From: Paludisphaera mucosa | GTDB taxonomy: Bacteria > Planctomycetota > Planctomycetia > Isosphaerales > Isosphaeraceae | Reading direction: 5' to 3' | Length of the DNA stretch: 64,000 bases | Assembly (NCBI RefSeq): GCF_029589435.1 | Contig: NZ_JARRAG010000002.1 | Span: forward strand, 868,001 to 932,000 | Part shown: in pieces, positions 21,499-25,312 of the stretch | Numbering within the stretch: position 1 is the first letter of the stretch | How the letters are laid out: every line of letters begins with the position of its first letter | The notes under the pieces: model-generated | The model's input: the letters and a program-made list of their open reading frames with translations, nothing else | The model's database searches: none | What the model was told of the DNA's origin: nothing | Position numbers and translations under genes: made by a program

Positions 21499-21640
21499 CC
21501 TTCTCCCCCCGGGAGAAGGCGGCCGGGACGGCCGGATGAGGGTCGCGGCGCTTCAGAAGAGACCCGCGCCCTCCAGCCCCGTCGAACTCCGCCGACCCTC
21601 ATCCGCCGCTGCGCGGCACCTTCTCCCGGCGGGAGAAGGG
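21499..21640. repeat. Long inverted repeat, REP/MITE-like
   Basis: Two arms of about 47 bases, 21499-21545 and 21593-21640, are imperfect inverted copies. The left arm contains TTCTCCCCCCGGGAGAAGG and ends GGATGAGGGTCG; the right arm starts CGACCCTCATCCG and ends with a CTTCTCCC/GGGAGAAGG pair. Each arm is itself palindromic. The arrangement resembles repetitive extragenic palindromes or miniature elements scattered in bacterial intergenic DNA; only one copy lies in this window. Confidence 0.6.
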
Positions 21641-21686
21641 GAAGACGCCCGAACGCCTTCGAACAAATCGGGGCCGCGTCTTGCAT

Positions 21687-21738
21687 CCTACGGGTCGTCC
21701 AGTACGATACCGAAAGTATCTACTATTCGTCCCGTAGG
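21687..21738 (+). promoter_or_regulatory. Nested palindrome upstream of blaI: candidate operator/leader
   Basis: An outer perfect inverted repeat CCTACGGG (21687-21694) / CCCGTAGG (21731-21738) encloses an inner imperfect one, AGTACGATAC (21701-21710) / GTATCTACT (21716-21724). The right outer arm runs into the Shine-Dalgarno AGGAG (21736-21740) of the gene at 21747. The inner palindrome is a good candidate for the binding site of the BlaI-like repressor, since this family autoregulates through short dyads. As RNA, the outer stem would cover part of the ribosome-binding site. Confidence 0.55.
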
Positions 21739-21746
21739 AGACCGTC

Positions 21747-22154
21747 ATGGCCGACGTCGCGCCCACGCCTCGGGAACTGGAGGCGCTGAAGGTCCTTTGG
21801 CGCCGGGGGCCCGCGACCGTCCGCGAGGTGCATCGCGAGATGCAGCCCCGTGACGGGGAGCTGGCCTACACCACGGTGCTCAGCCTGCTGCAGACGATGG
21901 AGCAGAAGGGGTTCGTGGGCCACGAGCCCGCGGGCAAGGCGTACGCCTACTTCGCCAAGGTCCGGCGCGACGGCGTCTTCCGCAAGTTGGCCGGGGGCTT
22001 CCTCGACCAGGTCTTCGACGGCGCGATGGGCGAATACGTCGCCCGCGCGCTCCAGTCGCGAAAGCCGACCGTCGCCGAGCTGGAGGAGATCGAGGCGATG
22101 ATCGCCGAGGCCAAGGCGCTGGCACGGGACCGCGACGCGAAGGGGGGTGCGTGA
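21747..22154 (+). CDS. BlaI/MecI-family transcriptional repressor
   Basis: A 135-residue winged-helix repressor of the BlaI/MecI/CopY family. The N-terminal 75 residues form the DNA-binding domain (TVREVHREM, then YTTVLSLLQTMEQKGFV as recognition helix and wing). The C-terminal helices (about 90-130) dimerise. In the classical system a BlaR-type M56 peptidase inactivates the repressor by proteolysis. Here the M56 gene overlaps its stop codon (TGATG), so the pair is translationally coupled. AGGAG lies 6 bases before the ATG. Targets may include its own operon and genes elsewhere; no beta-lactamase is nearby. Confidence 0.9.
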   Translation: MADVAPTPRELEALKVLWRRGPATVREVHREMQPRDGELAYTTVLSLLQTMEQKGFVGHEPAGKAYAYFAKVRRDGVFRKLAGGFLDQVFDGAMGEYVARALQSRKPTVAELEEIEAMIAEAKALARDRDAKGGA

Positions 22155-25100
22155 TGACCCCCGCGGCCGCATCGCTCGGGTACCGGCTCCTGGACTATTA
22201 CGCCCTGGCGACGTGCGTCCTGCTCGCGGTCGTCCCGATCCTCCTTGGCCTGCGGCAGCCGGCGCGACGGATCGCCGTCGGCCGCGCCGCCCTCGGGGGC
22301 CTGCTCGCGCTCCTCGCCCTCGGCTTCGTGCCGCACTGGCCCAGGGTCGGCCTCGCGGGGCTCCTCACGTCGACGCCGGAGAGGACGACGATTCCACCCG
22401 CCGCGTCGGTCGCCCCGGCCCGGTCCGCCGGACCGCTCCCGGGGGCTTCGGAGTCGTCGCGGCCGGCCCTCGACGCCGGGCGGCCGGACGGGATCGCCCC
22501 CCCTGTCCCGACGGCGCCCGAACGGCCCGTCGCCGGCGTCGTGCGGACGGCGACGACCGCCCCGGACCGGGCCCTGATCGCTGTGCGAGCATTCGTCGTC
22601 GGCTCCGGCGCGATGCTGGCCTGGCTGGCGGTGGGATCGTGGCGGGTGTCCGTGCTGAGGCGTCGCTCCCGCCGGGCGACCCCGGCGGCGGAGGCCGTGC
22701 TCTCCTGGCTGGTGGGGGACGCCCCGACCCCCGCGCTGCTCGTCCACGACGCGCTGGGACAACCGGTGGCGATCGGCGTCTTGCGGCCGACGATCATCCT
22801 GCCGTCGCGGTTCCTCGACGAGCCGACCGCCCGCCTCGAAGCCGCCCTGGCGCACGAGTGGGGGCACATCCGCAACGGCGACCTTCGCCTGATCGCGGCC
22901 TCGCGGCTCCTGCTGCCGATCCTCTTCGCCCACCCGATCTACTGGTGGCTCCGCCGCCTCATCCGGGACGACCAGGAGGCGCTGGCCGACGCGGCGGCGG
23001 CGTCGGCCGTCGGGGGGCGGTTGGGCTACGCGGAGATCCTGTTCGCCTGGTCCAGGACTTCGCCGGACCGGTCGTGGCTCGCGGCGGGGGGTTCCGTCGC
23101 CTTGTTCGAGCGTCCATCCCAGGTCAAGCGGAGGATCGCCATGCTGCTGGACGGAGAATTCCGCGTCGAGCCGACCTGCCCCGCCCGCTGGCGGATCGCC
23201 GCGCGGGCCCTCACGGCGACGGCCGTCGTGGCCGCCTCGTTCCTGACCCTCCGCCCGGCGGCCGGCGGGGCCGACGGCCCCGGAATCCCCCGGCCGGTTG
23301 TGCAGGCCCAGGAGCCGACTCCTCCCGCGCCATCCAAGACCGAGCCGGACGCGATCGAAGCCCGCCTCCTCGACCCGGACGGCAAGCCCGTCGCGGGGGC
23401 CAGGGTGTACCTGGACGAGTCCATGACGTTCGCCGGCCCGAAGCGCCCGGGCCCGACGCTCACGCTCGTCGGGACGACGGGCCCCGACGGCTTGTTCCGC
23501 TACCCCCGAGGCCGGTCGGACGCGTACGTGCGGAGCCGAGTGATCGTGGCGGCCGAGGGCTACGGCCCCACCTTCGTCGACAGGACTCCGGCGGGCGAAG
23601 ACGAGGTCGTCCCGCTGGTCCGCGACGACGTCCCCATCCGGGGCCGCGTTATCGACGCCCGGGGCCGCCCGGTCGCCGGGGCCGCGGTGACGGTCGCCTC
23701 GATCTCCTGGAACCCCAGCGGCGACGTGGACCGGCTGATCGACGGCTTCAGGCCGAGGACCAGCGAGCCCAGGCCGGGCGAAACGGAGCGTTCGTGGTCG
23801 ATCGACGTCCCCTTCCTCCCCTCCGCGGTCGCCGACCAGGACGGCCGGTTCACTATTCGGGGCGTCGGCCGCGGGCGGATCGCCTCGCTCCGGGTCGCCG
23901 GAACGGGGATCGAGACGGCGCAGATCCGGGTTGCCACCCGCGAGATGCCGGCCGTCGAAGTCCTATTCGTCCCGGGCCGGAAGGACGGCCCGAAAGAGAC
24001 CTATTACGGCGCGACCTTCGAGTACGTCGCGCCTCCGGGACGGGAGGTCGTCGGGACGGTGACCGACCTGGAGACGGGACGGCCCGTGGCCGGGGCGACC
24101 GTCGGCTCCTCCCGATGGTCCACGTCGGTGGACCCCGATTTCCAGACGACCACCGACCCCCAGGGCCGCTACCGGCTCGTGGGCCTTCCGGCCAAACCCG
24201 GCAGGTTCAACGGCGACATCGAGGAGATCATCGCCGGAGGGGGTGCCACGCCGCCCTACCTCTCGGCGACGAAGCCGATCGGTCGGTTCGAAGCCGGCAA
24301 GCCCACCATCGTCGACCTCGCCCTCCGTCGCGGGGTCCGGGTCAAGGGGCGGGTCGTCGACAAGCAGACCGGCCAGGGCGTCCGCTCGATCGCCGTCTAC
24401 TTCGTCCTGGCCGGGAACCCCTACTGCACGCCAAACCCCCGGGCCATGTCGAGCAGCCTGCCAATCGGCCCATGGACCGACGACGACGGGAACTTCGAGC
24501 TGGTCGCGTCGCCGGGCCCGGGGGCGATCGCCGTGCGGGCGCGAGGCAAGAGCTTCCTGTACGACGACGAGGGCATGCCCTACCGGCGGGGGACGGGCGT
24601 GGAGACGATCCCGGGGCTGAAGTGGCAGAGCGTGGAGTCGGGCCTCGTCGACACGCTGACCGACATCTTCAAGCCGTACGAGTACCACGGCGTCGCGGGC
24701 GTCGACCCGAAGCCGGGCGATGCGGAGATCACCTGCGAGATCCTGCTCGACCGCGGCCGGTCGGTGCCGGGCCGGGTGGTCGGCCCGGACGGCTCGCCGC
24801 TGGCCGGGGCGGTCGTCCTGGGGGACGAGGATTACATCTTCGACCGAGGGCCCGAGCCGCAGCCGTCGGCCGATTTCGTGGTAGCGACGCTCGTCCCGAA
24901 CGCCCCCCGCACCGTCACGGCCTACCATGCCGAGAAGAACCTCGCCGGGTCCCTCGTGGTCGGGCCCGACGAGGTCGGCCCGGTGGTCCTGAAGCTGGAG
25001 CCGCAGGGCGAGGTGACAGGCCGGCTAATCGACGCCGCCGGGCTCCCGGTGGCCGGCTGGCAGATCATGCACGGCAACCCCCAGTCGTCGAAGCCGTCCG

Positions 25101-25312
25101 ACGCCGGCGGGGGCGCGGTGGTCGCCACGACGGCCGGGGACGGCCGATTCCGCATCCCGAGGATCGTCCCCGGGCGGAGCTACACCTTCACCGTCTGGAG
25201 CCTGCGGCCCAACCCGCAACACCCCAGGAACGTGACCCTGGTCGAGGGCCTGATCGTCCCGAGCGGCGAGACGAAGGACCTCGGCGACGTGTCCCGCGAC
25301 GCGGGCGATTAA
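22154..25312 (+). CDS. BlaR1-like M56 metallopeptidase with carboxypeptidase-regulatory-like repeats
   Basis: A 1052-residue membrane protein. The N-terminal part has hydrophobic segments near 15-35, 48-65, 140-160 and 350-375 around a cytoplasmic M56 peptidase domain whose zinc motif is HEWGH (H234-H238). After the last segment come about six Ig-like repeats of the carboxypeptidase-regulatory type, each opening with a version of VxGRVxDxxGxPVAGAxV (for example GRVIDARGRPVAGAAV and GTVTDLETGRPVAGATV). The usual penicillin-binding sensor of BlaR1 is absent; the repeats are probably extracellular and could be the sensing part. Start taken as ATG at 22154 overlapping the blaI stop; GTG at 22151 is possible. 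It would cleave the BlaI partner on receiving a signal (inference from the family). Confidence 0.85.
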   Translation: MTPAAASLGYRLLDYYALATCVLLAVVPILLGLRQPARRIAVGRAALGGLLALLALGFVPHWPRVGLAGLLTSTPERTTIPPAASVAPARSAGPLPGASESSRPALDAGRPDGIAPPVPTAPERPVAGVVRTATTAPDRALIAVRAFVVGSGAMLAWLAVGSWRVSVLRRRSRRATPAAEAVLSWLVGDAPTPALLVHDALGQPVAIGVLRPTIILPSRFLDEPTARLEAALAHEWGHIRNGDLRLIAASRLLLPILFAHPIYWWLRRLIRDDQEALADAAAASAVGGRLGYAEILFAWSRTSPDRSWLAAGGSVALFERPSQVKRRIAMLLDGEFRVEPTCPARWRIAARALTATAVVAASFLTLRPAAGGADGPGIPRPVVQAQEPTPPAPSKTEPDAIEARLLDPDGKPVAGARVYLDESMTFAGPKRPGPTLTLVGTTGPDGLFRYPRGRSDAYVRSRVIVAAEGYGPTFVDRTPAGEDEVVPLVRDDVPIRGRVIDARGRPVAGAAVTVASISWNPSGDVDRLIDGFRPRTSEPRPGETERSWSIDVPFLPSAVADQDGRFTIRGVGRGRIASLRVAGTGIETAQIRVATREMPAVEVLFVPGRKDGPKETYYGATFEYVAPPGREVVGTVTDLETGRPVAGATVGSSRWSTSVDPDFQTTTDPQGRYRLVGLPAKPGRFNGDIEEIIAGGGATPPYLSATKPIGRFEAGKPTIVDLALRRGVRVKGRVVDKQTGQGVRSIAVYFVLAGNPYCTPNPRAMSSSLPIGPWTDDDGNFELVASPGPGAIAVRARGKSFLYDDEGMPYRRGTGVETIPGLKWQSVESGLVDTLTDIFKPYEYHGVAGVDPKPGDAEITCEILLDRGRSVPGRVVGPDGSPLAGAVVLGDEDYIFDRGPEPQPSADFVVATLVPNAPRTVTAYHAEKNLAGSLVVGPDEVGPVVLKLEPQGEVTGRLIDAAGLPVAGWQIMHGNPQSSKPSDAGGGAVVATTAGDGRFRIPRIVPGRSYTFTVWSLRPNPQHPRNVTLVEGLIVPSGETKDLGDVSRDAGD

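Follow-up and report, generated by a model that had tools for sequence, protein, structure and literature searches.

Tandem palindromes before a planctomycete blaI gene: a predicted paired operator that can be read as nested RNA dyads

Introduction

Does a leader that can be drawn as two nested dyads, the outer of which reaches into a ribosome-binding site, act at the level of DNA, of the message, or of both? The question is posed by the leader of a blaI-family repressor gene in the 64-kb stretch of DNA analysed here as a whole (the window). In the first-pass annotation, a single combined element was proposed, in which DNA-level autorepression, with the inner dyad as a plausible repressor site, was joined to an RNA-level block of translation by the outer stem. 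The repressor gene and its partner are:

21747..22154, + strand: blaI-family repressor gene, 135 aa; PF03965 at 90 bits (cut-off 22.6); matches MecI and BlaI structures
22154..25312, + strand: M56 peptidase gene, with a one-base overlap with blaI, encoding carboxypeptidase-regulatory-like domains as well; PF05569 at 59 bits, PF13620 at 112 bits; HEWGH in the translation

Among solved structures, the blaI product matches MecI with an E value of 2.9e-07 and BlaI with one of 4.3e-05. In the M56 protein, carboxypeptidase-regulatory-like domains lie in the place expected for a penicillin sensor. A Pfam search at E 0.001 gave no penicillin-binding sensor domain in this protein but CarboxypepD_reg domains instead, and beta-lactam sensing by the M56 partner was rejected on this result.

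Results

Anatomy of the leader

The dyads that raised the question are the following:

21687-21694, + strand: outer left arm, CCTACGGG
21731-21738, + strand: outer right arm, CCCGTAGG, running into AGGAG (21736-21740)
21701-21710 and 21716-21724, + strand: inner dyad, AGTACGATAC/GTATCTACT

The outer arms are real; as first described, they lie 44 bases apart from start to start, and the right one merges with AGGAG ahead of the blaI ATG at 21747. This pair of arms, with a gap of 20-40 bases between them, occurs at a single place in the 8,211,357-base genome (reversed-pattern controls, 0). The inner dyad sets 10 bases against 9, with one C unpaired. Comparison with relatives (see below) suggests another division of the same stretch:

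21681..21686, + strand: -35-like TTGCAT; TTG at the same place in 13/13 orthologous leaders, the hexamer itself 3/6 against TTGACA
21689..21704, + strand: predicted operator O1, TACGGGTCGTCCAGTA, 16 bp
21703..21708, + strand: -10-like TACGAT, overlapping the right end of O1
21703..21718, + strand: possible third overlapping site, uncertain, TACGATACCGAAAGTA; TACK-N8-MGTA at 8/8 here and in G037, 7/8 in several relatives
21715..21716, + strand: predicted transcription start, placed by promoter geometry roughly 7 bases beyond the -10
21721..21736, + strand: predicted operator O2, TACTATTCGTCCCGTA
21736..21740, + strand: ribosome-binding sequence AGGAG, one base in common with O2

The promoter-like pair of the window thus reads TTGCAT, 16 bp, TACGAT. 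O1 sits in its spacer, and the left half of O1 makes the outer left arm; O2 starts 32 bp past O1, and its right half makes the outer right arm. The inner dyad, in turn, is the right half of the predicted O1 together with the left half of the predicted O2, with the -10 box between them. Any two tandem palindromes whose half-sites follow each other as a-a'-a-a' will inevitably look like one dyad inside another, and we regard the nested dyads as, in all likelihood, a by-product of two such palindromes sharing one half-site type.

A strict sigma-70 scan returned no promoter at the blaI leader, where the window pair has 7 of the 12 consensus bases; relatives such as G006, with TTGACA/TACGAT, are closer to the consensus. 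A genome-wide search for TTGACA-N16-18-TACGAT was rejected as proof of a promoter class, as 3 places against 0 controls are too few. The third overlapping site may be real, as the leader of a BlaI paralogue (L104) has O1 and a site at the same offset, or it may merely reflect the -10 box and the start site. The classical BlaI/MecI/CopY operator core, TACANNTGTA, has 0 matches in the 64-kb window.

Orthologous leaders

Against shuffles, the tandem dyad of the window alone is not significant (p 0.095), and the case for tandem operators rests on relatives. Of the 45 family genomes, 11 contain close orthologues (63-100% identity), at 12 places in all, and a Pirellulales MAG (L085) contributes one more, which gave 13 leaders; L082-L084, taken as repeats of G003, G007 and G005, were left out of the count. 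The leaders were aligned gap-free over 60 bases, with the spacing to the start codon left free and one spacer base omitted in both G014 leaders. All 13 have TTGNNN, 16 or 17 bases, and TANNAT, and in every one TAC-N10-GTA, that is O1, lies inside this spacer. O2, starting 32 bp on, is present in 10 (nine intact, that of G003 with GAC for TAC) and lost in three, namely G027 and both G014 leaders. The window, 9 of the 12 other orthologous leaders and G069, a genome outside the window's class, thus have a pair of inverted repeats of a single half-site ahead of the gene for the repressor itself. In the Pirellulales MAG, O1 and O2 are identical 16-mers. The leader in G005 (L012, 134 bases before the start codon) has sites at -126 and -94 and then at -58 (7/8) and -26, both pairs being spaced by 32 bp; the last of the further sites abuts the ribosome-binding sequence, 68 bp past O2.

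The inner dyad fared less well as a unit. It is present, but its GATAC/GTATC part is poorly kept: four of the five pairs form in 2-6 of the 13 rows and the fifth in 9, and this extra pairing is complete in the window and G037 only. On these grounds the inner dyad by itself was rejected as the operator.

Specificity across genomes

The promoter-plus-O1 pattern gave 20 matches in the 45 family genomes against 2 for reversed controls, and 18 of these immediately precede BlaI genes, ten of them orthologues and eight paralogues; the remaining two fall within long open frames (483 and 587 codons). The tandem pattern was found in 7/45 family genomes, at one place each and always upstream of the orthologue, with the reversed control in 5/45 genomes. 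When the AT of the -10 box was fixed, the tandem pattern occurred in 2 of 392 phylum genomes, those of the window and G069, with 0 controls. The copy in G069 ends 14 bases before a Penicillinase_R gene whose product is 63% identical over 118 residues. In that leader (L086), the whole 50-bp element is near one large palindrome, O2 being almost the exact inverse of O1 (15/16).

Symmetry of the paired sites

One refinement of the operator reading, possible although we hold it to be rather unlikely, is that the element is bound as a single symmetric dimer-of-dimers, in which the two outer half-sites resemble one another, and so do the two inner ones, around a common centre; such binding would explain the match of the outer arms at the DNA level. 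The outer halves match best (70/88, p 0.015) and the inner halves somewhat (58/88, p 0.08) in a comparison that omits G027 and both G014 leaders, and O2 is the inverse of O1 at 15/16 positions not only in G069 but also in G025. However, the sites of the Pirellulales MAG are direct copies (16/16), direct similarity exceeds inverted similarity in G006 (13 vs 10), and many paralogues have O1 only over the 140 bases of leader examined. Moreover, the inner half of O1 is under constraint from the -10 box, and this may by itself explain the pattern.

The outer stem and the message

In addition to the repressor site, the outer arms might pair in the message, masking the ribosome-binding site and preventing translation of blaI. 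The strand over 21680-21760 does fold strongly: its energy is -33 kcal/mol, whereas shuffles average -20.7 (z -3.69), and none of 200 folds as well. In all 13 leaders, however, the left arm lies between the -35 and the -10, upstream of the predicted start, so that a transcript from the predicted promoter would lack it. The outer left arm is probably absent from the normal message, and RNA from the predicted start folds unremarkably (z 0.51). A transcription start inside the dyad that removes the left arm, which the first-pass annotation named as refuting its proposal, is thus what promoter geometry predicts.

Conservation of the stem, whose absence the first-pass annotation also named as refuting, is partial: counting G-U, seven to nine of nine pairs form in 8/13 leaders, and fewer in the other five. 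Some results lean towards pairing. The proportion of cells that are paired and the score for covariation are above those of most shuffles, being matched in the 13 rows by 7 and 14 of 500, respectively, and in 9 rows by 10 and 5 (alignment A2 omits G003, G027 and both G014 leaders). The outer halves, too, resemble each other more inside one genome than between genomes (p 0.015 for 11 rows, p 0.07 for 9). A comparison that involves no pairing, between the left halves of O1 and O2, nevertheless gives p 0.03; the resemblance of the outer halves is thus accounted for just as well if the half-sites drift together or if a dimer-of-dimers binds symmetrically. Likewise, sliding the structure by one column yields as many pairs changed on both sides (8 vs 7). 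Compensatory pairing of the arms was therefore not found, the weak covariation being equalled by the non-pairing comparison. Pairing within each operator, used as a covariation test, showed no excess over shuffles and gives no help to the operator reading.

If the left arm were kept for RNA pairing, it should decay where the right arm is gone. It persists (CTACGG) in G027 and both G014 leaders, which have lost the partner, and this disfavours pairing as its role. Nor is pairing the reason for its retention among paralogues, since a good partner for it is missing from 7 of the 8 paralogue leaders that have O1 (best downstream match 4-5 of 7 bases; 6/7 in L102). The position of the ribosome-binding site in G005, 68 bp past O2, likewise speaks against the stem. 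Taken together, an RNA stem acting on blaI translation is highly improbable. Of the combined element first proposed, DNA-level autorepression is well supported by comparison, with units other than those first drawn, and the RNA-level block is left unsupported.

A variant places the hairpin in read-through transcripts from upstream only. These would contain both arms, their blaI translation would be silenced, and the half-sites would double as a translational insulator, so that repressor would be made from the repressible promoter only. We give this very little credence. A conserved upstream gene as the source of read-through was looked for among frames of at least 70 codons within 625 to 2500 bases upstream, depending on the locus, and rejected, as shared neighbours were seen only between G004 and G003 (together with L082, the duplicate of G003).

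That the nested dyads are a functionless chance feature of one leader would fit the borderline score of the window, but conservation and linkage to BlaI genes across genomes make it the least credible of the readings.

Discussion

The leader is very probably the promoter-operator of an autoregulated blaI-M56 operon, repressed at the DNA level through paired operators. In the mechanism that we infer, a BlaI dimer bound to O1, between the -35 and the -10, would keep RNA polymerase off the promoter, and repression would be reinforced by another dimer at O2, immediately beyond the start. The distance of 32 bp, about three helical turns, would place O1 and O2 on the same face of the helix, where the two dimers might cooperate. 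The M56 partner would sense a signal, upon which BlaI would be removed and the operon transcribed. The overlap of O2 with AGGAG would reflect closeness and no RNA switch.

Paired BlaI operators are already known. In Clostridium thermocellum, as PMC8457756 describes, BlaI_0696 and BlaI_1845 have paired operators, two inverted-repeat pairs for four protomers. The likeness to the present locus extends to a BlaI-family repressor in its own operon with an M56/BlaR1-type partner, two inverted-repeat pairs upstream, and a small, self-centred regulon, the last as predicted here. The half-sites differ, being GTCTAT (five apart) or GACTAT in C. thermocellum and TACK/MGTA with eight between here, and so does the evidence: the clostridial operators come from DAP-seq and gel shift (PMC8457756), whereas those described here are predicted from comparison.

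The cop promoters regulated by CopY/CopR, which are copper-responsive, have a 16-base operator with the core KACANNTGTA, often in two copies; the authors suggested that the distal site blocks the -35 and the proximal site blocks polymerase (PMC7253601). The present system resembles them in the BlaI-like fold family, the 16-base operator and the two copies over promoter elements, but the core KACANNTGTA is absent from the window, and the half-site here differs from TACA/TGTA. In Bacillus licheniformis, dimeric BlaI represses its own operon from operators OP1-OP3 (PMC3305447), and repression of the own operon from several operators is likewise predicted here. The Bacillus system includes a divergent beta-lactamase gene and the penicillin receptor BlaR1 (PMC3305447), whereas here the partner is an M56 protein in which Pfam showed no penicillin-binding domain. 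PMC9834060 gives the general BlaR1 scheme. Among the open-licence papers listed, neither a planctomycete BlaI operator nor a BlaI leader RNA was found.

What the present case adds is a predicted operator code for one planctomycete BlaI group, TACK-N8-MGTA within the promoter spacer, in many cases with a second copy 32 bp on. Such a code makes BlaI regulation testable in a phylum where a single genome may have numerous BlaI genes; there are 11 BlaI-family genes in this 8.2-Mb genome and up to 22 among the 45 family genomes. The case also illustrates that tandem palindromic operators can mimic nested RNA dyads.

When the 110-base leaders of the 10 other BlaI genes of this genome were examined, significant tandem dyads were found in two (L002 and L067; p 0.005 each); in L001, two palindromes of almost the same sequence lie 59 bp apart, beyond the tested range. 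The unrelated paralogue L067 appears, from its sequence, to have the same layout with another motif, which favours the reading as paired operators. The doubled motif, two copies of CAGAC-N5-GTCT, is present in 3/45 family genomes and in 0 controls, each time before a BlaI gene, and in each of these leaders the first site lies, by eye, in a TTGAC-N17-TANNAT-like spacer. This motif is nearer to that of C. thermocellum than is TACK/MGTA (PMC8457756). At L067/L090 (G000:C2:691994-692033), outer arms CTCAGACGG/CCGTCTGAG run into GAGGAGG; they are built from a pair of CAGAC-N5-GTCT sites spaced by 25 bp, of which the first falls within a promoter-like spacer.

A separate palindrome, CCTTCTCCC-SSSN-GGAGAAGG, is present in two copies just upstream of the blaI promoter (21499-21519 and 21619-21639, 120 bp apart). 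It is a dispersed repeat family, with 39 places in the genome against 0 reversed controls and five pairs 120-122 bp apart; one copy lies upstream of another BlaI gene (C2:1607130, L066).
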